Positions 1 through 31,392 of a stretch of 31,392 nt of DNA are shown in pieces. Source of the stretch: Spirogloea muscicola. Lineage: Eukaryota; Streptophyta; Zygnematophyceae; Spirogloeales; Spirogloeaceae. The stretch spans positions 215,128 through 246,519 of the forward strand of contig WELB01000155.1 of assembly GCA_009602725.1 (NCBI GenBank), written 5' to 3'. The position numbers and the translations under genes are program-made. The notes below the pieces were generated by a model. It had not been told where the DNA came from. It did not search any database and saw only the letters and a list, made by a program, of their open reading frames with translations. Position 1 is the first letter of the stretch. Every line of letters begins with the position of its first letter.

Positions 1-3000
1 GGGCGGCCGCCTCCCGCTGGCGCCGCCGGCGGACGCGGCGCCGGAGTGGGGGGAGAGCGTGCTGCCGCCGCTCGCCAACGGCGCAGCCGAGGCGGTGTTC
101 GGGCCGGAGCCGGCGGCGGCGGCGGCGGAGGAGGACTGGATGTCCCAGCCGCCAGCGGCGTCCATCACCGGCGACAGCATGAGCCCCGCGCTGCACCACG
201 CGCTGATGGTGGCCACCATGCTGCTGGTCTGCGCCGGCGGCGGCGCTTACCTCGGCTGGAAGCTCAACATGGTTGTCAGGAACATCGCCACCATCGGGCC
301 GACGCCGATCCTCTTCCTGGCCACTGAGGTGTCCATCTACCTCTCCACGCTCGTGCTCTTCCTGGAGGTGTCGCGCCCCGCGCGCGAGCGCCCCGCCAAG
401 CTCATGCCCTCCGCCGGGCCCTTCCCCGTCGTCTCCATCCTCGTCTGCTGCTGCAATGAGGACCTCGAGGTCATCCAAGGTGCGTACACGCCCATGTACA
501 ATGAATCTCTCTGCAGACTCAGACTCAGTCTCCACGTCCTCTTTTGGTAAGGAAGTCTTCATCACCAGTTATGCACATTCGCGGTTGACCTACTAATGAC
601 GAACTTGCTTTGCTGCACACAATGCTGCTGCTGCACGGCTTCCAGGCCAGCCGTCGACTTGCATGGGCATGCCGAGCTTGAAGGAGGCAAGCAGTGCCCG
701 TTACTAACAGCAGCTGGACGCGCCGCAGATACGGTGCGGGCGGCCGCCAGCCAGAAGTACCCCACCAGCTACTTCACCGTGTGGGTATGCGACGATGGTG
801 GCGACGACAAACTCAAGGTCCGCTTCCCTCGTGCTGCTCGTGCATGCATGAGCCCAAAGACAGGCATGAGGCAGCCTTCTGCTGCCTCCAAAATGCTTAT
901 CTAAAAGTTGCTTAATTTGAGGTAGGAATGCCAACATACGAAAAGCTACTGATCATAGAAGCTGGTTTGAGTACGCAGGACTGGGTGGAGGTCGAGGGTG
1001 CTGAGACGGGCGGGAGGGTGCGGTATCTCCGGAGATCGAAGCCCAAGGGGGTGCCCCACCACTTCAAGGTCATGAGCTCGCTTAGTGCTGGCTGCTCATC
1101 CACGTTGGCCTATGCCGGTTGCGCGCAGCAGCTGCCATTGAGCGCTGCTGGTACGCAGCCTTCTGAGCTGGTACAAATTTCCTTTTCCGATTGCTCCTGA
1201 CAGGCAGGGAACATCAACTGGGGCCTGCGCCACGCATCTGGCGACTTCGTCGCCATCCTGGACGCGGACATGATACCCTCGCGCTTCTTCCTGGCCAGCA
1301 TGCTGCCGCACTTCGACTCCGACAACGTGGCCTTCGTGCAGAGCCCGCAAGCCTTCTACAACATCGTTCGTGGAGACCCCCTTAACGACGCGTCCCAGGT
1401 ACCACAGCAGGCATCCTTGGTGAAGCTTGCTCAGGAACTTGCTTGACCTCCCCGAGCTTGGCCCCCTTGTAGTGCGCCAGCTTGTCATGACCAAGCATAC
1501 CTTCGTCGCCCGGCGATCACGCAGGACTTCTACGATGTCATCTTGCCATACCGCGATGGGCGCAACAGCGCCCAGTGTGTCGGCACCGGCATGGTGATCC
1601 GCAGCAGCTGCTTGCGCCAGATCCAGGGCTTCACAACGGGCTCCATCACTGAGGACTTTGACACGGCACTGACATTGCACTCACAGGGCTACAACTCAGT
1701 CTACATCACACAGCGCCTGCAGGTCAGGCTCGTTGCTTGCACATGCAGCCTCTGCCTCAGTCTTGCCGCCGTGAAGTGCTGCTGCAGATTCATCCAAACC
1801 CACTTGAGAAGCTGGCAAGCTAGTAGCAATACCACACATTCTGGACCTACTCCTTGAGATTCTCATGAGGGTGGACAGTGACGTCTCCGCTGGCACTTGC
1901 CAGGCAGGCCTTGCGGCGTGGACGCTGCAGGGGTACATCAAGCAGCACCAGCGGTGGGCAACGGGCAGCCTGCAGATTCTCTTCAAGCATAATCCCCTCT
2001 TCCGAAGAGGACACCAATTCAGGTCCTCCTGTGCCCCAGCACCTGCCAAACTCTGTTCTGGCGTTGTGTTCAAGCTGGTCGCTAGAGCGAGAAATGAACC
2101 CTAAAATCTTCCACTTTCTCAACGGCAGCAGACTGTTTGAAGATGTTTGGCACGCAATTAAATACATGTAAGACGTTTCTCGCGCCCATTCTTTGGCAGT
2201 CTGTATCGCCGCATCATCTACTGGTATGCCGGCGTCCACTACTTCCAGAACGTCGTCGTCCTGCTGATGATGATCCTTCCTATCTTCATTCTCGCCTTTG
2301 ACTTGCGCATCATGGCCGGCGGATACAAGGTGAGCACAGCTTTCCTGCTTTGACGCGGTCTAGCTGCTGCACACTTTCTGATCTGCATCTCAGCCACATC
2401 CAGGAGCTAGTTGGTCAGCTGGCAGCTAGCAAGTTGGTCTCTGAGTGCATGCAGTAGTCGGTACTTCTGGATCATGTAATATGCAGACTGCGAAGGTATA
2501 CATCATTCTCCTGGTGCCATATGTAGTAGCTTCACGCATCATGTGCTACATCTTCTTCTGCCGCCTTCCCAAGTCCATCAACGTCCAAATCCGGGGGGAG
2601 CAGGTCTGTGAGCCTCCAGCTGTTCATCCCTGACAGAAAGCCTACCTTACTTTCCATATTAATGTGTCGCCACCAGTCTCCCCAAATTTGTGTTGGTCAA
2701 ACAAGGGTTTTCTCGTAAGTGAAGGAGTAAATGGACGTCATTACCTGCAATTGCTCTACAGTGCCAGAGACATTGTGGTTTGCGCTGGGGTGAGACTGAC
2801 TCATTCGTGAAGAAGGCATTTTGGATAGAGACCTTGAGCCTGAGCTACGCTGCGCCGTTTGACCTGAAAGACTCTGCTGTTTATTGGGCCAGTGCTGGTA
2901 TTGGATGGCACCGTACAATTGCTGGGCAATTGCACGGGTCTTCTTTCCTTGGTTCACAAGTCGCTTTGAGGCCACCGGAAGCACTAAAAAGGTCAGCATA

Positions 3001-3970: not shown

Positions 3971-4968
3971 GGGCAGCTACTCCGACTCGAGTCTTGAGCA
4001 ACCTGTATGATGCTGGAAGGGACCCTAGTATTAGACCAGGTTGCTAGAATCATGCATTTCACCTAGCAGTGGGTGAAGTGCTAGCAGCCGGTGAGGTGCA
4101 AGAAACACTCACGCTGCATGCAGTCCTCAAGGACTGTTTACTAGACATTCATAGACAGCTGTTGAAGGTCATGAGCTGTGCGCAAGAGAAGCAGATCAGT
4201 TGTGGTGATCGCGAGGGCCTAACATAGGTAGGAAGTGTGTGTCATGACTTGATATCTCCCCTGTGCTTGTATACTCATGGGACTTACACTATGTTGATCT
4301 TGTGATGGTCACACATGTGAAACCATATCTGGTACAGGGCTAGTGCTTGCACTTAAGCCGGCCTCCTCTGAAGAAGCTGCTCCTACGGAAGGAGGCGAGG
4401 GCTGTAAGAATCGAGCCCACAAAAGAGTCAACATGCCTTGAGGACTTCCTGATGTTGGGTAGGGAATCCTTGTTGTACGTCATGTCAATGTGCGCTTCCC
4501 ATGCACTTGAATGAGAGCTCATGCACTTTCTGTCAGACAGAAATGCAACTCACTTATAATGATTGCCACTTCAGTCGTAGCTTCTCCAACAGCTTCTCGC
4601 CCACTTTGGCAGAGTAATTTTTGAAAGTACACCCGCAAGCAAAGATGGGGTCTGTCTTGATCACAGCGATCGCCTCTCTACTGGAATAGTCTTTCTTTGT
4701 TCGTCTTGAAGCAAACCGCAGTGAGGCATGGCAGCTGCAGCTAGCCGAGCACATCGAGAGCGTGGCTTGACGACGGCCAAGCGGGGATGGCCAGCTCTGC
4801 GGAGGCGTCAGCTCGGCGCTCGAGACGAGGTTGCGGCAAGCTGCGGCGCGGCGGCCGCGCACTCCAGCTGACAGGCCCTCCTCAGGCGCTCGGACCTCGG
4901 CGCCTGTCCCTAAGCCCTTCAACCCCGAACCCTAAAGCTAAAACTTGAACGTTGCGTGGAGGTCCGCC
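3971..4968. other. Intergenic region between CSL and TBCE
   Basis: Presumed 3' UTR of the CSL gene followed by the TBCE promoter. I see no further coding exon. Base composition shifts to GC-rich from about 4780 towards the TBCE start. A telo-box-like CGAACCCTAAAGC lies at about 4926-4938, just upstream of the TBCE ATG. Nothing else was recognised. Confidence 0.5.
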
Positions 4969-7900
4969 ATGGCGGCGGCGGGCTTCCGGCCGGGGCAGCG
5001 CGTGCGAGTCGCGGCGGCTGCGACAGGCGACGGGTCGCAGAGCCACCACGCCGCGACGGTGCGCTACGTGGGGCCCGTCGCAGGCCAGGCCGGCGACTGG
5101 CTCGGCGTAGACTGGGACGACCCCTCGCGCGGCCGCCACTCCGGCGACGCCGGCGGCGTCTCCTATTTCGCCGCCGCCACGCCCGGCGGCGCGTCCTTCG
5201 TGCGGCCGTCCCAGGCGTGCGCTGGCGTCAGCCTCCTGGCGGCGCTGGAGGCGCGATACACATCCCGCGAGCCCACCGCCGGTGCGCTCGTAACGCCAGC
5301 TTCCCGCCGGCTTTCCGAGCTTCCTCGACTCCAGTCCTCGAGCCAGAAGGCTGATCTGCAGACCTAGGGCTTCACTTATAGCTAAACCCTAACCCTAAAT
5401 CGGTAACCCCACACCCTAAGCCCTGAGCCACTAAAAGTCTAAACCCTAGATCGCAAAGACTGATCTGCAGACCTAGGGCTTCAATCATAGCTAACCTAAC
5501 CCTGAACCACTGTACCTTAACCCTAAACCCTAGACCAAAACCCCTAACCCCCAAACCCTAAACCCTACACCCGTCTATAGCCTGACCAGGCTTTAAGCGG
5601 TGGCGCTGCGGCAGGAGCTGATGACATGTACATACTTTCGAGCGGGCGACGGCGCCTGCCGATTGAGCTAGTCGGCCGAGCGCAGGTGGAGGCGCAGCAG
5701 GCCCGGCTGGATCGCCTCAGCGTGGCGTATCTGCCTGGAGCTGGCGTCGCGTCGGCTGGATGCCCTGGCGAGCTCCGAGCAGCTGCTGGCAGTATCCTTC
5801 TGGATGTCTGAGGGGTCCTCGTGTGAATTGACAGTGGCTGTGAAGAGGTAACTCATTACATACGCATTGATCGTTAAACCACCTTAAATCTGACATTGCA
5901 GCCTGAGGGCCGAAGGACTAAGCGACAAGGCTAGCACGTTGTGGCTTGCCTTTCCATTCCATGTCCCGCCCAAATGGAGACGAGGTTGGGATCAACAGGA
6001 AACTTTTGCTGTCCTTAACAATGCCGGCGGCAGATCTTCGGGAACTCTATATCTCGGGCCACCTGCTTTCATACTGGGAGGTGAGGCACGCTGCCCCTCG
6101 ATCGTCAACGTCAAGTCCTGAACTCTGTCTCCTTCCATTCTGAACCACCATTGAAGAAAGGGAGCCTGTCACCAGTTGACTGCGTGCAACGAACTGTGAG
6201 GCCAGGATGTGAGCAGGATCTGCCAGGAGCTTCCCGTGCTGGAAACACTCGACCTGAGCGACGGCAGGCTCCTGCCAGCACCGCCGCTCGTGCCTGGCAT
6301 GGCGGAACTCAAGATTCTTGTGCTGAACAACTGCAATCTGCAGTGGAAGGATGTAAGCTTAAGAAAGCCCCAATATCTTATATGAAGTCTCTCTCATTGA
6401 GTTACTGAGTATTAGCAAATTGCAAGATTGCTGCCAATCTGCCCACTCCTGTGAGTTCAGAAGTAGGAGTGATTGTCGTCATTAATGGCAGCTTGTTGTC
6501 CTGCATCCATCATCGTTCAGGTCCAATTATTGAGCACGAGCATCCCAAGAATCCAGGAGCTCCATCTCTGCAGCAACCTCATCAAAGATTTGCAGGTTTC
6601 AGATCTAAGTTTGCCTCTGGTGTAAGAGCTGCTGTGCTTGCTGATCAATAGCAGTCTCCAGTCGTTGTGTACGCTGCTGTGCTTGCTGCCCACTTGCTGG
6701 TCTTTGCTTAAATCAGTACAAATACCTTCATCAACAAGAGGCGAGATGCTGGCACGGTGTACTGCTACTCATTCGCTTGTCGTGGGACTGAGTCTGCTTA
6801 TATATTCATTTGCGGTTGCCTTTGGGATTGAGAGGTAAGATGTCAACAGAGGCGCTGCTCTAAGGCAAGGTCCTTGCGCTGCCTGACGCAGTTGGACACA
6901 GCACGTGGCTGCAAGCTCAGCTTCCCGTTGTTGCGCCTGCTTGATTTTGAGGGCAACCAAATACGCAACTGGGATGAGGTCAAGTGCTTGTCCAGCCTTG
7001 TTAGGTACGACACGTGCAATCTCCATCATCCTGTCTCTTATGTGAACTGTTTGAATTCTTGAATCTTCAATATCACATGTAATGCTCAATCAAGTGTGAC
7101 CAACGCGAGTCAAAATTAGAGTTACAGGTGGGCCTTAGGGGTTTGGACGGCGGAAGATGCGACCTTCTGTCACTCACTCTTCTAAGGTCTCTGCTCAATT
7201 GCTGCTCAACTGACCATGTTCTGTCCTGTATATTCTGTAGTTTGGAGGTGCTCAATCTCAGTGGCAATGGGCTCCTCAATGTGGAGCCCTTGTCTGCCAC
7301 AGAAGAACTGGCGCCATCAGTTGCTCATGAAGTCGGGGCCACAGAGCCTCCCTTTGCCAGGCTCGGGTGCTTGCTTCTTGGCAAGTGCAGTTCCCTGTTT
7401 GTTGCCTTGGCCGTGCCTCAGTCACTTCTTCATTCTTCAAGGTTTTCCACATGGTTCCACTTCTGACAGTGCATTGAGTGTATCGCTGTGTGTGTCAGGC
7501 AACAACAGCATAAGCACCATGGCAACTATTGATGCTCTGAATACGTACTCGGCTCTGAAGGTTCGTAAGGATAGGCCCTGTCAAGTATACTAGCCCTTTG
7601 GACCACTCATGAAAACGGCAGGTTCCGCGCCGCACTTCTTGTTTTCCACTGAATGCTGAAGCGGATTCTATGTGACAAGCATTGATGCAATTGTCTTCAG
7701 AGGTCTTCCTACAGCCGACATGGGCCCCTACGGAATGTGGAGTAACTGCATGCTTATGCATGTTACCAAACATGAAGACAAGCTGATAGCCTTGATGAAT
7801 GTAGAGTGAAAGATTGGCAGAAGTGTTATGTGGGCTTACTGCCTCTCTGACTTCAAGGATATTCTTGGGCCTTCGCTGTGCTGGCCATGCATGCTGGTCT

Positions 7901-15180: not shown

Positions 15181-15384
15181 GGCCTTAAAGGATAAGCTCA
15201 TTCATATAATGGCCGGCCTAAATGGATCAGCCCGAATACCTACTGGCAAATACTACAGGGGAAGGGTGTCGCAAATTTATCAGATGAAGAGAGGTGCATT
15301 ATTTGTGGTGGTGACTGAATGGCTTGGATTCAAGGGGCGGCTTGCTTTACTTGGTTCGTCTCCGGCAGACAAAGGTTTTGCTTT

Positions 15385-15710
15385 CCCTGGCCCCTTCGAG
15401 CTTTGCTCATTCTGTTTTCTGGGCTGGCCTCTCAAAGCCATCGCCCTCTCCTCTCCGACATGTGGCTGCTTAGCAGAGGTTACTGACTGTTTCGTAGCTA
15501 CTTGATTCCCTGTGTGCTGTAGCGCTTGTCCTGGCCCCTTCAAACTCTGTTCACTCTTTTCTCTAAGCTGGCCTCTCCCAGCCACCGCCTTCTCCTGAAG
15601 CGTCTTCCTCTCCTTTTGTTCCTTCATTTTTGGGCTGGCTTTTCCAGCCCCTATCCTCAATGGGCGAGCCCTTTCTTCTCCTGAAAGCGTCTTTCTTCTT
15701 CTATTGGTTG
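15385..15710 (+). repeat. Three stem-loop modules of the GGGCTGGC family
   Basis: Three successive modules in plus orientation, with stem-loops at 15421-15439, 15566-15583 and 15632-15651. The first two are preceded by a CTGGCCCCTTC... lead-in (15387 and 15533). The third is the canonical palindrome GGGCTGGCTTTTCCAGCCCC followed by CAATGGGCGAGCCC. The 159-residue frame on the minus strand here is only the complement of these modules. Confidence 0.8.
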
Positions 15711-15857
15711 GAGCAAACACTTGGCTAAACCCCACAGCCATGCCCGCGGCCATGCCCACGGCGACGTCTTTCCGCCAGCTAGCGATTTAGACTTGCATCT
15801 ACTGACTAGAGGTTACTGAGAGTCCGCTTGCTGCTGTCTGTCCTTCACACTCCGGCT

Positions 15858-16277
15858 CCTTCAGCGGCTTGGCCCGCTAGGCCATTGACCGGCGGCCGGG
15901 TCTGCCAGGGGCGATGCTTCAACTTCGCCGGTTCGCTCGCCCAAGTCTTCCGCATGCGCCTGGCGGTATTGCTTCAACGCTCCCTTGCCCACGTCGTCCA
16001 CACGCGAGCAGGCCGTGCTATAGCCGCCGCCTCTGGGTCCATTCCTTGGGGCTGGCCTCTCCCAGCCACCAATTAATCTGGCCGCGCTTGCTTCTGGGTC
16101 TCGGCGGAGTGCCTCTTTCCCTGCAGCGAGCTACTCAGACCTGATGTTGCTCACTCGTGGGTACTGAGCTTCCCTCTGCATCGTCTGTGCAGTGTTTTGT
16201 AGTGTAGTCCATTTTCCGGCTCCTCTTTCTTTGGCTTTGGACATTGTCCATTCTTTTGGGGCTGGCTTTGCCAGCCC
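15858..16277 (+). pseudogene. Retroelement fragment, copy A (5'-truncated, broken)
   Basis: Matches the 3' end of copy C: the segment for the ..RLARQAI..RPG region, then SLAQVFR.RLAV.LQRSLAH and HTRAGRA, to the shared stop TACTGA at 16165-16167. It then has the same 3' tail, ending at the stem-loop 16258-16277. The reading frame is broken: an in-frame TAG in CGCTAGGCC, small deletions, and the 53-bp insertion at 16040-16092. The shared 3' end and different 5' break points are typical of 5'-truncated LINE copies. Confidence 0.75.
16032..16100 (+). mobile_element. 53-bp hairpin insertion with 8-bp target-site duplication
   Basis: TCTGGGTC occurs at 16032-16039 and again at 16093-16100. Between them lie 53 bp containing the stem-loop GGGCTGGCCTCTCCCAGCC (16048-16066) and then TTAATCTGGCCGCGCTTGCT. 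Copy C has the uninterrupted site (GCCGCCTCTGGGTCCCGGCG, near 17220-17239), so this is an insertion into copy A. Nearly the same insert sequence is found at about 17653-17705. Confidence 0.8.
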
Positions 16278-16285
16278 CTCTTCTC

Positions 16286-16640
16286 GAAGGCCGCTCGCAG
16301 CAAGGCGGCCAAACACGCCGACCACCCGGCTGCAGATGAGTTCGTCCCCCTGGCTGTGGACGTGCACGGGGCTCTCGGGTCCCAGTGGCTCGACCTGCTA
16401 GCCAGGCTTGCGCGGCGCGCTGTGTCCCGCAGGGGCGGTGAGCCGGCTGACTTCAACGCCGCTGGCTCGTGGGCTCAGGTATATCGTATGCGCTTGTCCG
16501 TCTCCCTTCAGCGGTCCATGGCCCACGCCTTGCATCTGCGTGCTGGCCGTGCTCTCGCTGCGGCCTCCGGCTTTCGTCAGGGGGATGATTTTCCGGCAGC
16601 TAGTGTGTCGCATTTGAGGCTCCTCACTCGTAACTACTGA
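16286..16640 (+). pseudogene. Retroelement fragment, copy B (C-terminal domain)
   Basis: Open frame of about 118 codons from about 16287 to the stop at 16640. It reads KAAKHADHPAADEF..., SQWLDLLARLARRAVSRRGG, AAGSWAQVYRMRLSVSLQRS, MAHALHLRAGRA and ends LRLLTRNY. It aligns along its whole length with the end of copy C but is clearly more diverged, so it belongs to a different subfamily or is older. It starts directly after the stem-loop that ends copy A, which fits 5' truncation. It lacks the upstream HD..RD domain. Confidence 0.75.
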
Positions 16641-16659
16641 GTGGTCCATCCTCCCCTGT

Positions 16660-17434
16660 TCTGCCATAGCCTCTTCCGGACCGCTTCCCACGACCTCCTG
16701 CGCGATGGTATGCAGAGGGTGTTTTCGGAGGCGGGCTTCAAGGTCGCGGTGGAGAACTCCTCCATCATGCCCATCCACCTGGGCGCGGACGGCCAGCCCC
16801 ATACGCGACGCGCCGACCTGGTCGCCATCCCGCCCGGCGACGGTCCCCGCATCATCGCTGATGTGGTGACAACGGACTGCATCGACTCCGCCAATCCCAC
16901 CAGATCGGCGTCGTTTTGCAGGGCACGCGGTCGGCCAGGCGGCCCGGGGCAAGGAGCGAAAATATGCTGATCACCCGGTGGGGGATGAATTCGCGGCCCT
17001 GGCGATGGGCGATGTACACTGGGCTTTCGGCAGCCGCTGGCTGGATCTCATTCAGCGGCTTGCTCGCCAGGCCATTGCCCGGCGGCCGGGTCTGCTAGGG
17101 GCGATGCCCGGCTTCAATGCCGCCGGTTCGCTAGCACAAGTCTTCCGCGTGCGCCTGGCCGTATCGCTTCAACGCTCCCTTGCCCACGCCGTCCACACGC
17201 GCGCAGGCCGTGCTATGGCCGCCGCCTCTGGGTCCCGGCGGAGTGCCTCTTTCCCTGCAGCGAGCTACTCAGACCTGATGTTGCTCACTCGTGGGTACTG
17301 AGCTTCCCTCTGCATCGTTTCTGTGTTCTGCAGTGTTTTGTGATTCTCCCTTTGTAGTGTAGTCCTTTCTCCGGCTCCTCTTTCTTTGGCTTTAGACATT
17401 GTCCTTTTTTTTTTGGGCTGGCTTTGCCAGCCCC
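16660..17434 (+). pseudogene. Retroelement fragment, copy C (nuclease-like ORF plus 3' tail)
   Basis: Longest copy. The upstream frame (to about 16890) reads ASHDLLRDGMQRVFSEAGF, then RRADLVAIPPGDGP, then IIADVVTTD. The downstream frame, shifted by one base, reads GHAVGQAARGKERKYADHPV, SRWLDLIQRLARQAIARRPG and SLAQVFRVRLAVSLQRSLAH, and stops at 17301. The order HD..RD, R.D, DV.T, KYA, W..L is what I associate with the restriction-like nuclease region at the C-terminus of some algal and animal non-LTR retrotransposon ORFs; this is family memory, not a search. The 3' tail 17302-17434 matches that of copy A and ends at the stem-loop 17415-17434. No reverse transcriptase domain is present. Confidence 0.7.
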
Positions 17435-17574
17435 TCTTCTCTATGGGCGCGCACTTCTCTCTTCAGGCCCCTTAGTAGCTGCTTTGCTCGTAGTTTGGCC
17501 GCTTCGAACCTTGTCATTTCTTTTCGGGCTGGCTTCTCACAGAGAAGTGCGCGCCCATAGAGAAGAGGGGCTGG
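17427..17574. repeat. 34-bp perfect inverted repeat with 80-bp spacer
   Basis: 17427-17460 (beginning CCAGCCCCTCTTCTCTATGG) is the exact reverse complement of 17541-17574 (ending AGAGAAGAGGGGCTGG). Together they could fold into a long hairpin in DNA or RNA. The left arm includes half of the terminal stem-loop of copy C. Confidence 0.9.
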
Positions 17575-18000
17575 CTTCTCACAGCCCTTGCCCCCGTTGG
17601 GAGAGCCACTTCTCTCTTCTCTATGGGCTAGCACTACCTTCAGACCTTGTCCATTGCTTTGGGCTGGCCTCTCCCAGCCACCAGTTAATCTGGCCGCGCT
17701 TGCTTCATGCACGACACTTCGGTGACTACAGCCTTCTGCCACCAGCTGGAGCTCTCGCCTTGGCCCCTTCGAACCTTGTCAATTCTTTTCGGGCTGGCTT
17801 CTCACAGCCCTTGCCCCCATTGGGAGAGCCACTTCTTCTCACAGCCCTTGCCCCCATTGGGAGAGCCACTTCTTCCAGGAGAATCGGAGCAGCGCTTCCA
17901 AGTCTCTCGCCTTGGCCCCTTCGAACCTTGTCAAATCTTTTCGGGCTGGCTTCTCACAGCCCTTGCCCCCATTGGGAGAGCCACTTCTTCTTCGCCCAGA
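17500..18000 (+). repeat. Stem-loop modules including a tandem unit of about 150 bp
   Basis: Modules with the lead-in TTGGCCCCTTCGAACCTTGT followed by CTTTTCGGGCTGGCTTCTCA occur at about 17759 and 17910, with a variant (TTGGCCGCTTCGAACC) at about 17493. Further stem-loop halves are at 17570, 17660 and 17838. The segment from CTCTCGCC (17753) to GAGAGCCACTTCTTC is duplicated in tandem with a period of about 150 bp, and its end is duplicated once more at 17837-17874. The block ends about 170 bp before the next gene's likely start. Confidence 0.8.
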
Positions 18001-20359: not shown

Positions 20360-23300
20360 TCAATATTCCTTGGGCTTCGGTGAAGCAAACATGGCGGTGA
20401 GCATGCGGAGGCGGTCGCGCTTGAGCTCTCCAGGGTCGCCGCTGAGGTATCCGCTGCGGGGGAGGAGCAGGCCGCTGAGCTGGCCGCTGAACGGCAAGAG
20501 GTTGCCGCTAGGCGGCAGCAGCAGGCCGTGCCGGGATGCTTCGTCGCTGCCGGGGTTCTCGGCCGCCCACTGCTTGGCACGGTACCGACGCCAAGCCAGC
20601 TGGATCGTGACGGCTGCCCACGTGCGCCAGTGTGGCGAGTAGTGCTTGATCATGTGCCGCAGGTGCTTGCTGCGCAGCTGGAAGTGGAAGTGCATCGTCA
20701 CGTACCTGCGTCACTCCAATGGGCATGATTAAGACCTGCAGTACTTGCACAGAAAGGATCACACAATCATGACAAAAGGCGAAGAGGGCAATGGGTCCGC
20801 AGTTACTTGAGATCCTCCGCTTCCAGGACAAATGCCTCCACCCCATCAGACGCAACAAGGCCAGCGGACGAGCATGGGAGGCTGTCCTCGTCCACACGCT
20901 TGCTGAGGCACCAGCTGAGAAGCTCCTCGCCCGTACTGCTGCCAGGACCAAGTAGGATGGTGCTGCCCAAAGCCACGTGCAACACTTGCTGCTGTCAGAT
21001 GGCCAGGAAGAAATGGGCCAAATGGGCCAGTAGTGTATCCATCCATTTTGTGCATGAGAAAGAGGTTGAGGTAGAGGCTGCTGCGGCTGTCACTTGCACC
21101 TAGTGTCAGGTGGGATAAATCAATGACATAGCTATAGACATGATTTTATCAAGTAAGTGATTGCCCCTCGCTGAAGTACCTCACTTTGCCGTTGGTCAGC
21201 TTGTGCTTGGTCTGAAGGTGCCCGCGGATGATGAACAGCATGCGCTGCACCGGCTCGCCCTGTCGCATGATCTGCGTCATAGAATGCTCTGCATTCAGGC
21301 CAGGGTTTACACTCAAGGCAAGAGCTCTCGCAGACTCTGATACTGGAATTGATCAGAGAGTGGGCGCTCATACTGGGTTACACAAATTCCACAGTGTGTG
21401 GAGCCCAACCCAGAAAGGGAAGCTTGCGGTATATGAAAAATTGTCTCCGATGCTGACCTGCATACCAGCCGTGAAGTGGATAGGTTGCAGCCGCTCACAG
21501 ATGTTGTCAAGGACCAGGTCCTCCATCTTCTCAAAAAGAGGCACCTGAAGCACCAAACTCGCAGCAAGATTGAACCATCAATGACTTTAACAAGGCTCGC
21601 GTAACTAACACTATGCTGTTGATGTGCGAAATTTCTTCAGTGTGACAAGCAGCAGGACAGGCGCTGGTTGCTGGAGGACCCAACCTTGCGGACGAGATCG
21701 AGGCAAAGGTGACGCTTGATGTCGCGCCGCAGCGACTCAGGCAGGCTTTGCACCATGGCCTCCTCATTGACGCCACGCGTGGCAGCCCAGCGCTGCCGCT
21801 CAAAGCGCCGAACTGCTTGCTTGAGCCGCCATGGCAGCTGCCGCCGCCGCATCCAGAATTCGAGGTCCCGTCGGTGCAGCTGCATGCCCTCCATCCGGCT
21901 CGTAATATTGTGCAGGAATACCTGCCAGCAAGATATTTCCACGAGCTAGACTAGAGGTCAATAGTCTGTTCCTGTGGAAGCATGCAGACAACATTATCAA
22001 GTACTGACTGGGTGACCAGCATGTCAACAGACAGAGCAAATAAGTGAAGCACAGCTGCTTGAAAGGAAGATTCGCCCCAAGCGAGCGCATTCATTGACAT
22101 ATCGCCATGCTCGCAGAAGCAAGCACTTGCACTTGCCAAAATGTCAACTGCAAGCATTGGCTGGTTTGGACTGCAGGTTTTGCATGTGCTTCTTACTAAG
22201 ACTCAAAAGCACTTCTGTTTCATAGGAGGGGGCAACCAGACCTGGATGTTGCCAATGAGGAGCATAAAGAGGAGGAGGCCAGAGAGGACAATGATGATGC
22301 TAAAGACCACCTCTGACATCGAGTTGCTTGGCACAAGAGCATTGGCAAAGGAGCTGGGCGGCAGGAAACGGGCGGGCTTGTCAGCATGCAATTTAGATAC
22401 AGGGATCACATTGTCGTTCATCAGACTACTACAAGACTGGCTTCTGAAGGCACCGACGCACTGTTGCAACTTTTAACATGTGGCAACCGCTCATTAAGGG
22501 CATTAGATCCACAGTTACAATTTAGCAGAAGGCTGGAGGCGTGCCTGAAGGACATGGTGCCCCAGAACAGCGGTAGGAGGATCTTCTCCAGGAAGTTGCT
22601 GTCGTACACGAGCGAGACAGCCGGCTTGTAGATGCCCCACTGGTACGTGCTGAATGGCTCGCCAGTTTTGAGGCATTGGTCGTGGACAGTGACGTTGGAG
22701 CCCCAGGCGGCACGCTCGGCGCCGCCGTCGAGCTGCGACCCAAATGCTAGAGGTGTGGGGCAGGCTAGGAGGAGCAGGCTGCGGTCCTGGGCGCCAATCT
22801 CAGCACCGAGGCAGTCGCACACCCGCTGGATGGTGAACAGGTACCACACCGCGCCGGCGACCTGCTCACAACAGCCGCTTGATCATGGCCGCCGGCTCCT
22901 AGGACGGACATTTCAAGATGCCACATTGCAGCAGAGATGGCTGAGAAGTACCACAGCGACGGCAACGGGGGGCATCGGCACTGACATGAGCGGCGATGAT
23001 GTATGCGGTCAGGTTGAGCGCGAAACCCCACCACGCCGTCCCGAAGACGTACCCGGTCACGCGCTGCGCGACAGGCAGGGCGAGTCGTGGTGAAGCCCAG
23101 GTCCCTGAAGGTCCTGACCACCGATGCTAAATGCAGACCCGTGATGATAACTACATAGTCATTGTCATTCATCCTGCTTGAATTAGCATCAAATTTTCAT
23201 TCACCAACACAGAATATAGTCACAAGTAGGTGGGACAATGCGCAAGTTGTGCAGCAGATGCCAAGCTGGGCGGTGTGGCAAACAGTTGTGGCAGGCACCC

Positions 23301-24124
23301 AAGGTCTGGCGCACAGGGGTGGAAGGCGGAGGTGGCCAAACCTCTATGCGACGCATGATGGTGACGGTGTGGTAGGCCCTGGGAAAGTACTGGGCGAGGA
23401 TGGTGGTCAGCAGGGTCAAGGTGACGGCGTCGGTGCTGGCACCGGCGCGCAGCATGGCAGGCGCGGTGACCCACACAGCGATCTGGGGCACCGGCAGTAC
23501 GACAAAGAGGTCGACGAGGAAGCCGCCGCGGAGCTTGGTGTAGTGCCGCACGATGGCCCGCGCGTCCTCCACGAGCTCGCCGCGGCCGAGCACCATGGAG
23601 GCCTTGGAAACGTACGCCATTCGCAGCGAGAGCCACATGTGGAGGAAGTACATGGCGTCCGTGGCGGAGCGGAGGAGCGTGACGACGAGCAGCGGCGTGG
23701 CCTGGACGTAGGCGCACAGGAGGTGCGAGTCGACGGCCAGCGTGTAGAAGAAGAGCGGGTCCACCGTCACCGCCAGCACGCACGACAGCAGGAACAGCCG
23801 GTTCCACAGCTGCGTAGCGGCAGCACAACGTTGCCAAGAGTTAAAGCCATGCCATTGCCGGCGCAGGGCTTGCCGAGCGGCTCAGCACGGCAGCCATTGT
23901 GCTGCCGCATGAGATCTCAAGATTGGGAATCTTATTGGGCCGCACGATCGCTGCTCCTGGCAGCATTGGCAGCGGCGACGGCAGCGACGGCCGTGCGCCC
24001 GCGGAGGCAGCCGGCAGCGGTGGCTGGCGTAGCGCGGACCTGCACGGCAGGTTGGCGGGGGTCCAGCACGGAGCCGAACCACCAGCGGCGGCGGCCCCAG
24101 CTGCCGCTGCGCCGCAGGCCCGGT
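20360..24124 (-). CDS. CNGC-like cation channel 'a', 5' partial at a gap
   Basis: Plant-type cyclic nucleotide-gated channel, a plasma- or endomembrane cation channel. Minus-strand exons from the 5' end: 24124-24040, 23809-23342, 23063-22986, 22861-22545, 22353-22242, 21921-21685, 21544-21458, 21271-21180, 20962-20807, 20705-20360; about 658 residues. Order: RRRWWFGSVLDPR; S1 LWNRLFLLSCVLAVTVDPLF; S2-S4 with GRGELVED and VDLFVVLPVPQIAVW; S5 GYVFGTAWWGFALN; pore FWGTMSFSSFANALVPSN; S6 LLLFMLLIGNIQ; C-linker RRRQLPWRLKQAVRRFERQR and LCLDLVRK; binding domain VPLFEKMEDLVLDNICERLQ to TGEELLSWCL; IQ motif AAVTIQLAWRRYRAK; tail ending ASPKPKEY. It resembles land-plant group IV (CNGC19/20, CNGC2/4) most. 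The pore intron has a GC donor (CAG|GCACGC). The ATG at 24159 belongs to SAHH sequence and is not its start. Confidence 0.92.
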
Positions 24125-24125: not shown

Positions 24126-24673
24126 GTGTCTCAATGAGCACAGCAGTCTGATCTCGCATACATTACAGCACAGCACAAGACCATCAACTCAGAGCAATAG
24201 CACCTCATTCATAGTGTGCTCTGTGGACCGACTTGACATGACTGCTGAGCGTAGGAGCCAACAGATGAAGAAATGCGACCAGCAGTGCCTCCCTCTCAGC
24301 TGTGACGACAAAGAAAGTGGCAAGAGCAGCACGGATGCAGGAGTGATCGGCAGTAGGTAGAGCGGGAGGCATACGGCGACATGCGACCTGGACTGCCAGG
24401 ATTTTGCAGGGGTTTTGAATGAGTAGGCAGGGCAGGACGCTGCTGCCGGACCTGGATCGTCATGTGCAGGGAGCCAGTGATCTGCGCGCCCTTGAAGGGC
24501 TGCGCGGCCCTATACTCCTCCACGCAGGACACGAGGCCGGGCATCTCGACCTCGGCGAGCTCGATCTCGAGGCGCCCGAAGTCGGCCAGCGCCATGTCCT
24601 TGACCTTGTACTCATTGCCCGCGGACGTCTTCTCCACCTCCAGGTCGCCGGACCCGGCGCTGAGAGCGGCCAT
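24126..24673 (-). CDS. SAHH: S-adenosylhomocysteine hydrolase, N-terminal fragment
   Basis: Hydrolyses S-adenosylhomocysteine to adenosine and homocysteine, relieving product inhibition of methyltransferases; a cytosolic NAD-dependent enzyme. Exon 1 is 24673-24452, with the ATG in GCCATGGCC. It encodes 74 residues: [35 protein letters not shown], then [17 protein letters not shown], very close to the plant SAHH N-terminus. Exon 2 starts at 24147 after an AG acceptor and reads TAVLIET before the N at 24125. In known SAHH these pieces are contiguous ([13 protein letters not shown]), so the splice is right. The remaining roughly 400 residues, including the NAD-binding domain, are absent because of the gap; nothing suggests a pseudogene. 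It is transcribed divergently from UTP23. Confidence 0.95.
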
Positions 24674-25441
24674 GGCGGGCGGCGGCGGCGGCGGCGGCGG
24701 GGGAGGTGCCTTGCTTCGAAGGCACAGCAATCGCTGAGGGCTCGGTCCGAGCGGGGCGGGAAGCCACCCGTTGGCGGGCCGCCGTTTCAAGCGAGTCGAT
24801 ATATTCGATTTCTGTGGCTATGGCGATGCGGCGGGGGTGGCCCGGTCACGGCTACGAGCCGGCCGTCGCCCCGATTCATCTGCGCACGGAAACGGAGGAG
24901 GAGGGGGGGGGCGCCTCGTGGCCAGGCCTGCGCCCCAGCCCCGACGGGAGGTGACGGAACGGGGGCACCGACGCCGACGATACCGTCGTGGCGTGTCCGT
25001 TGGCGGCGACCCCATTCCAGCCACAGGCTGGCCTAGCGGGGTCCCGCGACCAGACCCACTGACATAAATAGGCTCCACTTATTAGATATAAGGACGCCCT
25101 CTGTGTGCACCTGGCTGGCTTTTACAGCCGCTCCTTTATTGTCAGGCAGCCGCATTTCCATTCTTCCATTTCAATCCTCTCCCTTATCCCCGCCGCTGGT
25201 CATTCCCGAGCGAGCTCCGGGCCCTGCGCGCGGCATGGCGACCATGGCCGCCGCCGCTGCCGCCGCCGCCGCAGCCGCCGCCGCCACCACCGGCCGCCGC
25301 CGCTATCGGTGCCGCCGCTGTCCTCATGACTTGAACCTGCACCTCCCGGCTCATGTGGCCTGGCCAGCTAGTGGGAGCCTGCTCGTGAGTACCACCAGTC
25401 AGTTAGCTGGGAGACGAGGCGCCTGACTTGCGTTGGCCTCC
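24674..25441. promoter_or_regulatory. Divergent promoter region of SAHH and UTP23
   Basis: About 770 bp separate the two start codons. ACATAAATAGGC at about 25061-25072 is a possible TATA element for the plus-strand gene. At 25113-25129 GGCTGGCTTTTACAGCC resembles the stem-loop module of the 15-18 kb block. An open frame from the ATG at 25236, with a long poly-Ala run, ends at 25424-25426 without joining the UTP23 frame; it may be leader sequence or an alternative first exon. Confidence 0.45.
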
Positions 25442-27116: not shown

Positions 27117-27663
27117 AGCGCCGCCTTGCATGGCAGCCGATCTAGCTTGTGATTGTTGCTGGACAAATTTCGTGGATCGCAAGGTGATCGGCATGGCCGC
27201 TTACCCCAAGTTTAGTCTTAGCGGGACTGCACTGCTACTGTGTCAAGGTACACTGGCGGATTGAGCCATGTATACTTCGTGGTAGATCAAATTGCACAAG
27301 ATAAGGCTATTTCTTTTGAAGAGCAATATTCCTGCGCTTGCTCTGTGTAAGGTCCCTTGTCTGACTTCCCCGTCTCATTACCAGTGTTGTCGATCCGGAA
27401 TGAGGTAAAGCGCAAGAGAGCCATGCTAAGACTACCTGTGCAGAAGTCAAAAGCTTAGCACTTGAAACTCGTTAAGGTGCGCCTGCAGCTAGCTCACAGA
27501 ATATGAGCGACAAGTTGCAGAACTTGTACAGAAGTTGACCTAAATTTTTTCGAAGCCAGTGGCCTTCAGAATGATAATACAGGGCAGGCATCGCTGACAG
27601 GCACAGGCAAGGCCGCAAGGGACTCACAGGAAGTGAGATCGAGGGCCCTGGCCATGCGCTGCA
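27117..27663. other. 3' region between UTP23 and CNGC 'b'
   Basis: Convergent intergenic DNA presumed to hold both 3' UTRs. No further exon, RNA gene or repeat recognised. Confidence 0.5.
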
Positions 27664-30600
27664 TCAGCACGAGTCTGCGGGCTTTGGGGACGTGAACATG
27701 GCAGTGTATATGCGCAGCCGATTCCGACGGAGCTCCCCTGAATCTACGAGCTGCCCGCTTGTGGGCACCTGCTGCCCACTGTACGGCAGCAGCTGCCCGC
27801 TGTATGGCACTGCCGCTGCAAGGCTGCCACTCGCCTCGCCGCCACCACCACCACCGCCGCCGCCGCCTGCCGTGGAAGCCTCGCCACCCGCGACAGCAGC
27901 CATTACCGCAGCCCACTGCTTGGCACGGTAACGCCGATATGCCAGCTGGATTGTGACCGCAGCCCAGGTCCGCCAGTGCGGCGAGTAGTGCCGGATGGCA
28001 TGCTGCAGGTGCCGTCCTCGGAAGTGCTGTCGGAAGTGCTCCGTTACGTACCTGGCAGCAGCACAAGCTAGATGTCAACAGGCACAGACAGAGAGCCGCA
28101 TGGACGGGCACAGTACTAAGATGCAAGCTGCACCAGTGGACTGGAGTTTATAATGTTGGTCAAGATTAATGAGGTAAACAATAGGCGCCAGAGTAAGGTG
28201 ACGCCTTACTTGAGATCCTGGGCCTCAAGGACGAAAGATTCAGCGGCGTCAACTGTGGTCAGGTCCGAGGTGGCAAGCGGCAGCACGTCAGCTGTAGCAA
28301 GCCGGCTGCTGAGGCACCATCCCACGAGCTCCTCGCCCGAGAACTTCCCGGGCCCAAGCACAATTGTGCTGCCGAGGAAGCACAGAAGGGATCAGCGAAG
28401 AGCTGACAGTCAGCGAGGTGTGGCCTTCGCATAGCGGCCAGCATGTTGAGCGCAGGACTCTGGACCAAGAAGCTACACTCTGAGCCTAGATTATGAAAAT
28501 CGTAAGTTTGATAGCCAAGCACCACGTGCCTCTTCCCAGTGCTCATTGCCTGTGTTACAAGTCGTCTTGGCCGACACCATTGCCATAGACAGGGAGGCTC
28601 TTGGTTGTCACATCATTGCTAGCCTCCACCTATACAAGCAACTTCACAAGCGGCTCTGACATACCTGACAGTGCCACTGGAGAGCTGGTGGAGACACTGG
28701 AGGTGGCCGCGGATGATGAAGATCATGCGTTTCACTGGCTCTCCAGCTCGAACAAGCTGCACCATCACACCACATGCCGGTGAGGCGACTGCAAGGCCCT
28801 GCCACAAGCAGGTCACTTACTGGGCACCAAATGGACAAGCGCTTGGCAATAGCAAGTGATAGACACTGCTTGGAGAGAGGCTGAAGCTGGGGGTGGCTAG
28901 GATTTGCCGTACGGCTTACCGTCGTCTTCTCCAAGTAGACAACTGGCCGCAGGCGCATGCAGATGGCATCCAGCACCAGGCGGTCCATGTGTTTGAACAG
29001 CGGGACCTGCAGGGGAGGAGCACAGTACCGCCTCCATGAGCAGAGTCCAATTTTATGTCCTAAAGCCAGATTGATCTTACAAAGTGAGCAACATACATCT
29101 TGAACATAGAATACACTCGCGTGCAGTCAAACCTCTAACAGTGACGAGCTGGAGCTGCAGGAGCGTTGACGAACCTTACGAACAAGGTCGAGGCAGAGGT
29201 GGCGCTTGATGTCGCGCTGCAAAGAGTCGGGCAGGCCTTGCAGGACAGCCTCCTCATCGACGCCCCGCGTCGCTGCCCACATGTGCCGCTCATACTTGAC
29301 CACACGCTGCTGCAGGCGTGCCGGAAGCTGCCGCCGTCGCATCCACCACTGCAGGTCCCGCTTGCGCAGCTGCATCGCCTCCATGCGTTCAGTGATGGAG
29401 TGCAGGAAGACCTGCCCCGCCACACCACGCCAGCCGGAAGGTCAACTTTGGCCCACAGCATCTCATATCACGCTGACTAAAAGCTCCATGACAAGAACAT
29501 CTGGATCGAGGACCTCAGTGCCTTGAGCCTGAGGGCAGGATGCTTTAGAAGTAGCAGTAAAAGTAGCAGGTCATATGTGCTGGCGCACCTGGATGTTGCC
29601 AACGAGCAGCACGAAAAGCAGCACGCCGCCGATGACAATGAAGAGGGCGAAGATAGTCTCCACCATGTAGTTGCTGGGTGTCAGCGCATTTGCAAAGGAG
29701 CTGCCGCAGCAGACACAATTGTATGAAACAAGTGAACTGGCATCAGCCAAGAGGTCGCAGCTTGGTAGGCGGCCAGAGGGCCGAGTTCGTTGACCATGCA
29801 AGGCTGGTACATTGCGGCTCTGCATGACCTTGGAGTTACATGTGGAGTCACACGGGCTCAAGACAAAATTTTCAACTTCTATTCTGCAACTTGTGCATGA
29901 GCTCAGGAGGGGTCATCGACGTCCTTCAAGGTCTGGAGACGAGTGCATGGTGCCGAGACGGGTGTCTCTAGCACTGCACTGTCTAAGGTCTGGATGATTA
30001 TGATAATTCTTGAGGTTTCAATTAGGTGTGAAATCTCAAAGTCCCCCTAAAGTGGAAGACTCTCCATCCTAAAGTGGAAAAGTCTTGTTCAAATGCCTCT
30101 GCTCACAAGCAAATGGCATCTGAGGGGCCAGTGATCAAACATTGTCTGGGTCAATTACTGGTCTAGGAGGAAATACTGTGGCTGGGCGGCTGAGTTGCGG
30201 TGGCACCTGAGGGACATGATGCCCCAGAAGAAGGCGTAGAGGATCTTCTGCAGGCCGTTGGTCTCGGTCACAAGCGGCAGCGCCTGCGAGTACAGACCGT
30301 ATGTGAACGTGGTGTTGCTGCTCAGGCAGCGCTGCACGGTCGTGGCATTGGATCCCCAAGGTTCGCCGCTCGCTAGAGTGTTGCCGACACGCGCACCAAA
30401 CGCCAACGGGTCCCGGCAGCTCATGCGCCCATCATCACACCCGGGTATCGTCTTGCACTCGCGATACAGGCACATCTCCACACGTTGTATGGACAGCAGG
30501 TACCACACTGCGCCAACGAGCTGCAGGAGAGGCAGGGAGGAGGAGGACGTGAGAGACACAGACAAAACCACTTAGCGTCTCTCCTGCCGGTGAACTGCCA

Positions 30601-31392
30601 TGGCCCTACGAATCGTCAGACAAGAGCGCCAACGGCCAAGCACTAAACTGCCAAGGATTGCTAAAATTTAGCTTGTTTAAGGATCAGAGACTAGACAGAG
30701 TAGAGAAGAGAAGTGGCGCAGTTGACGCTCACGTGCGAGGAGATGATGTAGATGGCCATGTTGAGCGCAATGGCCCACCAGACGGTGCCAAAGACGTAGC
30801 CGTTGACGCGCTGCATGCGGCGCATGAGCGTGATGGCGTGATACACCTTCCGCACGTACTGGACGAGCGTGACAAGCAGCACGAGGAGGATGGCGGTGAA
30901 GGTGCCCTGTGCGGCAGACGCGACGGCGGGGACGACGACCCACAGAGCGAGCTGCGGGATGGGCAGCAGCACGAAGAGGTCGAGCCAGAAGCCGCCGCGC
31001 CAGCGGAGGTAGTGGGCGGCGATGCGGCGGGCGTCGACGACGAGCTCGCCCCAGCCGACGACCATGGACTCGGCAGAGACGTAGCCGGTGCGCAGCGAGA
31101 GCGCGACATGCGCGAGGTAGATGAGGTCGGTGAGGGAGCGCAGGACCGTGATGACGACGGCGAAGTAGCCCTGGATGTAGATGCACAGGTAGCGGCGGTC
31201 GATGGCGAGGAGGAAGAAGTGGAGGGGGTCGACGGAGATGGAGAGGCCGCAGGAGATGAGCAGCAGGCGGTTCCAGGACGGCCACGGCGCGCGGCGGGGG
31301 TCGATGACGCGCCCGAACCACCACCGCGACCGGCCCCACCCCTGGTCCGCTGCCGGCGGCGCCACGGCGGCCCTGGCCCTGCTGCCCGAGCG
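27664..31392 (-). CDS. CNGC-like cation channel 'b', 5' partial at window end
   Basis: Paralogue of channel 'a'. Minus-strand exons: >31392-30733, 30520-30207, 29700-29589, 29411-29175, 29006-28920, 28756-28665, 28368-28210, 28051-27664; 682 residues to the stop. Order: SRWWFGRVIDPR; S1 WNRLLLISCGLSISVDPLHF; S2-S4 with YVSAESMVVGWGELVVDAR and LDLFVLLPIPQLALW; S5 GYVFGTVWWAIALNMAIYI; pore FFWGIMSLSSFANALTPSN; S6 GGVLLFVLLVGNIQ; C-linker MRRRQLPARLQQRVVKYERH and DIKRHLCLDLVRK; binding domain VPLFKHMDRLVLDAICMRLR to SGEELVGWCLSSR; IQ motif AAVTIQLAYRRYRAK; a poly-Gly stretch; tail ending SPKPADSC. The S1-S3 pattern recalls CNGC19/20 (group IVb). Four exons (112, 237, 87, 92 nt) have the same length as in 'a'. 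The start codon lies beyond the window. Confidence 0.93.

Follow-up and report, generated by a model that had tools for sequence, protein, structure and literature searches.

Nested 5'-truncated LINE copies with a common hairpin tail in Spirogloea muscicola, and the insertion of a young family into such tails

The window analyzed here is a stretch of 31,392 nucleotides from contig WELB01000155.1 of Spirogloea muscicola. Near its middle, three coding fragments (copies A, B, and C) lie close together among several copies of one short hairpin. This raises the question of what kind of element produces both the fragments and the hairpins that stand free of them. The original prediction regarded copies A and C as 5'-truncated insertions of a LINE-like element, and this reading has been borne out: full-length relatives were found, and the copies are consistent with target-primed insertion. 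We consider it very likely that the locus is a nested pile of 5'-truncated copies belonging to four or more related LINE families (A, copy-B, T2, and T4) with a common tail of about 75 nt.

Nested LINE Copies in the Window

All features described here are on the plus strand unless stated otherwise. Copy D, from the family with the T4 tail, is represented by its coding end (...LHLLTRGY, the last codons translated by eye) and the start of its 3' UTR at 15790–15863, with a stop codon at 15817–15819. Its remainder, the T4 tail, follows at 17643–17706. The 3' UTR of copy D is interrupted by copy A (15864–17636), a 5'-truncated member of family A that holds further inserts. Copy A is bracketed by the duplication CCTTCA (15858–15863 and 17637–17642), as read from the joined and printed flanks rather than from an alignment to an uninterrupted relative.

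Copy A is a single element with two interruptions. The first is a 53-nt T4 tail fragment (16040–16092) within the coding part, between two copies of TCTGGGTC (16032–16039 and 16093–16100). The stop codon of copy A is at 16165–16167 and its hairpin at 16259–16278. Directly 3' of this hairpin, in the tail, lies the second interruption, copy B (16286–17613, stop codon 16638–16640), which is flanked by CTCTTCTC at 16278–16285 and 17614–17621. The 3' UTR of copy B in turn contains copy C (16677–17458), a 5'-truncated family A copy with a broken frame, its stop codon at 17299–17301 and its hairpin at 17415–17434; the duplication here is CTCTTC (16671–16676 and 17459–17464). Finally, a 28-nt piece of family A tail is inserted in reverse (17543–17570, minus strand) in the copy B hairpin, between copies of CTGGCTTCTCACAG at 17529–17542 and 17571–17584.

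These insertions were assessed by an empty-site test, in which the flanks minus one copy of the duplication were joined and aligned to an uninterrupted relative. The relative was copy C for the 53-nt fragment, the tail of copy C for copy B, locus L081 for copy C, and the L081 tail for the reversed piece. All four window insertions tested fit the alignment, with duplications of 6–14 bp. The window is thereby supported as a nested series of broken LINE copies.

Loose tails are found on both sides of the nest. A T2-type tail at 15616–15679 (hairpin 15632–15651) belongs to another family, of which it is a very short 3' end. At 17752–17839 there is a very short copy of the T3 tail, the type carried by copy B, followed by a partial second tail up to 17875. 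A further T3 tail at 17904–17991 is 99% identical to the one at 17752–17839.

Copies A and C had been predicted to share a stop codon, a tail, and a terminal hairpin behind unlike 5' ends. All of this is correct except the terminal position of the hairpin. The two copies also share C-terminal coding sequence, and the distance from the stop codon to the end of the hairpin is 111 nt in copy A and 133 nt in copy C. Copy B had been thought to have only the C-terminal coding part in common with them. It proves to belong to another family, and its 3' UTR and tail resume after copy C, at 17465–17613. Elsewhere in the genome, locus L133 has a 48-nt copy-B-family tail in the 3' UTR of a relative; its insertion point, CTTCTTC/AGGCCCC, is the one also used by copy C in copy B.

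The Common Tail and the Constant 3' End

In the window, the 20-nt hairpin sequence is matched five times with at most three mismatches, against 0.01 expected; one of the five is the reverse-strand reading of the copy A hairpin. The genome sequence that was searched (153.1 Mb, 471 contigs) contains 1,526 exact copies of it and none of the reversed control. The tail in which the hairpin is embedded measures about 75 nt and consists of a T-rich run, a GGGCTGG..CCAGCC hairpin, a short spacer, a GGGCGAGC-like box, and CTTCTT. Outside these last 75 nt or so, the 3' UTRs of different families do not align.

The hairpin itself is not the 3' terminus. From the duplications in the window, copy B ends 26 nt past its hairpin and copy C 24 nt past. 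In young family A copies, the constant sequence extends 26 nt beyond the hairpin and ends in ATGGGCGAGCC TTCTTC; the 46-mer made of hairpin and constant end occurs in 103 exact copies. A constant 3' end, as predicted, does therefore exist, but it lies downstream of the hairpin and not at it. Ends away from the hairpin had been named beforehand as an outcome that would speak against a LINE, and such ends are what was found. The LINE reading survives because a constant 3' end exists just 3' of the hairpin.

Single-sequence folds of the tail form the hairpin. Among five folded tails, a candidate outer helix (GUCCAU with AUGGGC) appears in the folds of tails 1 and 2 and in the centroid of tail 4. 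The z values are −4.0, −3.1, and −2.8 where this helix appears and −0.95 and −0.33 for the other two tails. An RNAalifold consensus of 40 tails lacked the outer helix and revealed no real covariation. For the hairpin, covariation gives no support because the stem barely varies, a constancy that is partly circular among these 40 tails, since the pattern by which they were selected already contains the stem. In Rfam, no family was found for the tail, and the two matches obtained were weak (20.4 bits at a cut-off of 80 and 18.5 bits at a cut-off of 60).

Family A Encodes a Reverse Transcriptase and an Apparent RLE-type Endonuclease

The relatives of the copy C C-terminal protein used here are the best 150 scored among about 18,861 first-look candidates. 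As the original prediction anticipated, full-length copies with a reverse transcriptase (RT) upstream are among them. The open reading frame of locus L007 comprises 1393 residues and matches RVT_1 at residues 667–893 (E 2.4e-13), and that of L008 comprises 1433 residues and matches at 707–933 (E 2.5e-13). In the L007 frame, residue 36 probably corresponds to the first ATG within the element, leaving about 1,358 residues. RVT_1 is the only Pfam match in either protein up to an E value of 0.1, so that an APE endonuclease is not matched. A DNA transposon was excluded, as the open reading frame carries an RT.

Five other copies (L008, L029, L030, L031, and L032) are 99.72–99.95% identical to L007 over 4.29–4.31 kb, and the 5' starts of the full-length copies of this kind differ by at most 17 nt. 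L033 is equally close (99.9%) but truncated. Judged from these alignments, family A is young and has a defined 5' end.

According to PMC5678591, LINEs with an RLE carry a Cys/His knuckle, CX2–3CX7–8HX4C, followed by the endonuclease residues D, D/E, and KX2KY, where the first lysine is catalytic and the second is less conserved. In family A, Asp-1234, Asp-1249, and Lys-1279 are invariant in all five aligned members. The KX2KY site reads KEKKY in one member, KERKY in two, and, in the two members of lowest identity (41% and 44%), KLLHY and KERHC. A putative knuckle, CX1CX12HX3C, is situated at residues 1163–1182, with the residue order as published but not the spacing, and GX2W is found in place of the published GXW motif. 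Two Cys/His-rich, finger-like motifs at residues 175–195 and 353–373 were recognized by eye and have no Pfam match. Family A thus appears to be a single-ORF LINE, its RT assigned by family match and its RLE-type endonuclease by motif only.

Sequence searches of the Protein Data Bank returned no relative apart from one weak match to a group II intron RT (E 1.5). A scan of IMG/VR for viral relatives gave one stretch that matched the pattern, and none was confirmed. No published description of this LINE family was found among the papers listed in the literature searches, and the family may have been published earlier.

Young Family A Copies Are Found Preferentially in the Tails of Relatives

The sites of young family A insertions were examined for 87 of the 103 exact copies of the 46-mer, in a first batch of 47 (40 in list order and seven loci collected previously) and a second batch of 40. 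Removal of three duplicated flanks left 84 distinct 3' flanks. In 19 of these 84, the insertion precedes the GGGCGAGC-like box of a relative by no more than 12 nt, in the same sense (95% interval 14–33%). At random positions, the 12-nt rule holds for 429 of 59,294 (0.72%), taken from four usable regions with 29,958 non-N bases, two of the six regions (L035 and L039) being all N; the genome-wide tail count implies 0.07% of positions, N included.

By one pattern, a same-sense box lay within 30 nt in 11 of the 47 first-batch insertions; by a slightly looser one, 11 of the 47 preceded a box by 12 nt or less. The two sets of 11 have all but one member in common. In the second batch, for which the looser pattern and the 12-nt rule were fixed beforehand, the count was nine of 40. 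A box in reverse sense was found once among the 84 (none of 47 in the first batch, one of 40 in the second). Most of the tail insertions are in the spacer between the hairpin and the box. Locus L065 resembles a tail insertion with a deviating box and was left uncounted.

The enrichment could reflect a mere preference for pyrimidine-rich nick sites beginning with T, which tails happen to contain. A T follows the family A 3' end in 71 of the 84 insertions, and the spacer is rich in pyrimidines, as this explanation would have it. However, when the comparison is confined to T-started, pyrimidine-rich sites, eight of 23 first-batch insertions are in tails, against eight of 2,623 random sites. The scarcity of reverse-sense boxes, and the absence of tail insertions from the copy-B family described below, also argue against such a preference, which we hold to be an unlikely cause.

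The arrangement of tail within tail could also have arisen by recombination, by gene conversion between tails, or by template jumping, without any insertion into tails. Inspection by eye identified the 5' hairpin half of the target tail, in addition to the box on the 3' side, in ten of the 19 cases (L044, L057, L058, L068 in part, L070 with its duplicate L114, L078, L113, L116, L119, and L120), as insertion would leave it. Six of the 19 (L047, L051, L085, L095, L103, and L105) have no matching 5' half by eye, the target hairpin being missing in L085, and these would fit an exchange between tails; the 5' junction is ambiguous in L053, L071, and L077. An automatic rule had flagged a 5' half in 15 of 20, the duplicate included, and four of these were rejected by eye. 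In three pairs (L070/L114, L027/L094, and L098/L100), loci from different contigs have both the insertion and the 3' flank in common, a pattern expected of duplicated segments or of uncollapsed haplotypes; this too is compatible with exchange. Against this, copy B lies in copy A between the two copies of an 8-bp duplication, and its empty site is clean. We regard exchange between tails as quite improbable.

The insertions themselves are mostly short. Of the first-batch copies, 44 have a match that ends within the retrieved sequence; 40 of these measure 60–266 nt (eight of them bounded by N), one 3.3 kb, and three 4.3 kb. Duplications of at least 6 bp were present in eight of the 36 usable copies of the 47, compared with 4.0% of shuffled pairs (eight copies end at N on the 5' side). 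Since 28 of the 36 have no duplication of this length, most copies show none that can be distinguished from chance. Several of the short copies with N on the 5' side run into it at roughly one coding position.

The Copy-B Family and Other Related Families

The copy-B, T2, and T4 families are known here from their C-terminal coding parts and UTRs. Coding sequences of the copy-B family end in LLTRNY or LLTRTY and are followed by the T3 tail; those of the T2 family end in LLSRGY, and those of the T4 family in LLTRGY. The full protein of the copy-B family could not be read because the bodies are long N runs in the three loci retrieved (L081 404–4290, L082 1440–5012, and L083 1–4126).

A copy-B-family 48-mer has 405 exact copies in the genome. 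Of 20 insertions, the first 20 places among the 405 listed, none precedes a box by 12 nt or less, which differs from family A with a one-sided Fisher p of 0.011. The tail preference is therefore not general to the whole group, and its statistical demonstration is confined to young family A. The window's copy B demonstrates that the copy-B family can enter a tail, without implying a preference. In two of the 20 insertions a tail feature is nearby: a box at 20 nt in L124, and a hairpin just 3' of the insertion in L127. L133, mentioned above, lies in the 3' UTR of a relative.

Loose Hairpins of Four Traced Tail Types Are Very Short LINE Copies

The free hairpins had been interpreted either as ultra-short 3' ends or as a parasitic SINE-like family. 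The first interpretation is confirmed for the tested inserts and for tail types T1, T2, T3, and T4, each of which was traced to a LINE C terminus. Among 35 T2 tails that were printed, the 5' ends vary, and the longer ones reach, by eye, coding sequence ending in LLSRGY and a stop codon. It is very improbable that the loose hairpins are a SINE family moved by the LINEs, with the T5 type described below as a possible exception. The thousands of short tails, with 15,414 genome-wide matches to a loose tail pattern against 385 for the reversed pattern, would suit such a family, but all four tail types run into LINE coding, the short family A copies vary in length as given above, and neither the 35 T2 tails nor the family A copies have the short body of constant extent, starting at a 5' end of its own, that marks a SINE. 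The LINE reading accounts for the 15,414 matches, which would otherwise resemble an orphan hairpin repeat.

Tails of the same strand are clustered. On contig C1, eight of 86 gaps are 300 nt or shorter, against 1.03 expected, based on the plus strand and on 87 of 100 listed places, the other 13 having been discarded on visual inspection because they did not resemble a tail.

A further tail-like type, T5, which reads GGCTGGCATTTCACAGCCG... or similar and then CAGCAGCCGC, was observed in the window around 25113, in L008 near 7020, and in the 5' flanks of L047, L095, and L105. Short repeats that have no hairpin (e.g. GCTGGGCGAGCTCTAGTTGG... and ACAGGACATTTGTA...) recur beside tails and serve as targets, as in L007 (2291–2436), L013, L018, L030, and L058.

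A Possible Double Use of the Tail

The anatomy of the copies suggests a mechanism in which target-primed reverse transcription by a single-ORF LINE with an RT and an RLE-type endonuclease would leave a constant 3' end and, in most cases, a copy of 60–270 nt, the shortest of which would be the loose hairpins. The hairpin RNA may plausibly be recognized by the RT, and the tail DNA might be recognized by the N-terminal zinc-finger-like motifs. Young family A favors the tails of relatives in the same sense, mainly in the spacer between hairpin and box. We tentatively propose, as something possible rather than probable, that this RLE LINE lineage uses the tail twice, as an RT start signal in the RNA and as a DNA site favored by the endonuclease. 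Each insertion would provide a fresh landing pad, open to related families, and same-sense tail arrays would seed themselves. If this is true, tail recognition and target choice depend on one short sequence. A comparison of family A with the copy-B family could reveal determinants of LINE targeting, because the young copies are nearly identical and the preference is seen in family A but in none of the 20 copy-B-family insertions.

Comparison with Known LINEs

RLE-type LINEs as described in PMC4640811 and PMC5678591 (CRE, R2, R4, NeSL, and HERO) resemble family A in having one ORF, a central RT, and a C-terminal Cys/His motif followed by D-D-KX2KY, with no APE match in family A; their N-terminal zinc fingers may have a counterpart in its two finger-like motifs. 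The Utopia lineage is likewise reported to have N-terminal fingers, an RT, a finger, and an RLE (PMC4640811). Family A deviates from the descriptions in these papers in the spacing of the knuckle and of the GXW motif. The targets given there are rDNA, snRNA genes, and microsatellites, whereas family A prefers the tails of relatives. Dualen, found in relatives of Chlamydomonas, also has an RLE but encodes an APE as well according to PMC4640811 and PMC8226300, unlike family A as far as the Pfam matches indicate.

Nested insertion into existing copies and arrays of 3' ends are features that the elements studied here have in common with Zepp and Zepp-like LINEs of green algae. Zepp clusters are described as arising by insertion into existing copies and as being composed mostly of 3' ends (PMC8226300). 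Zepp is an L1-clade element, and in Coccomyxa each chromosome has a single cluster of it (PMC3446292). In contrast to these accounts, the family A protein has no APE match, several families carry one common tail, and insertion is at a set place and in a set sense within the tail. The tails are also spread along contigs, as throughout contig C1, in an assembly whose contigs have no chromosome assignment. Self-nesting LINEs are thus already known from Zepp, and those studied here look to be of RLE type, with a tail common to several families.

Stringent-type LINEs and LINE/SINE pairs are also described as having in common a stem-loop close to the 3' end (PMC4176376 and PMC5135761). In those reports recognition was tested by retrotransposition assay, whereas the present hairpin is described from sequence.

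Other Features of the Window

Two similar-looking minus-strand gene stretches at 20360–23779 and 27566–31365 presumably resemble ion-channel sequences; the two pieces of them that were tested gave no Pfam match. Pieces of host genes were recognized at three other places in the window: a glycosyltransferase group 2 piece at 1543–1857 (plus strand, E 9.5e-09), a CAP-Gly piece at 4945–5367 (plus strand, E 5.3e-18), and an S-adenosyl-L-homocysteine hydrolase piece at 24296–24790 (minus strand, E 9.7e-20).
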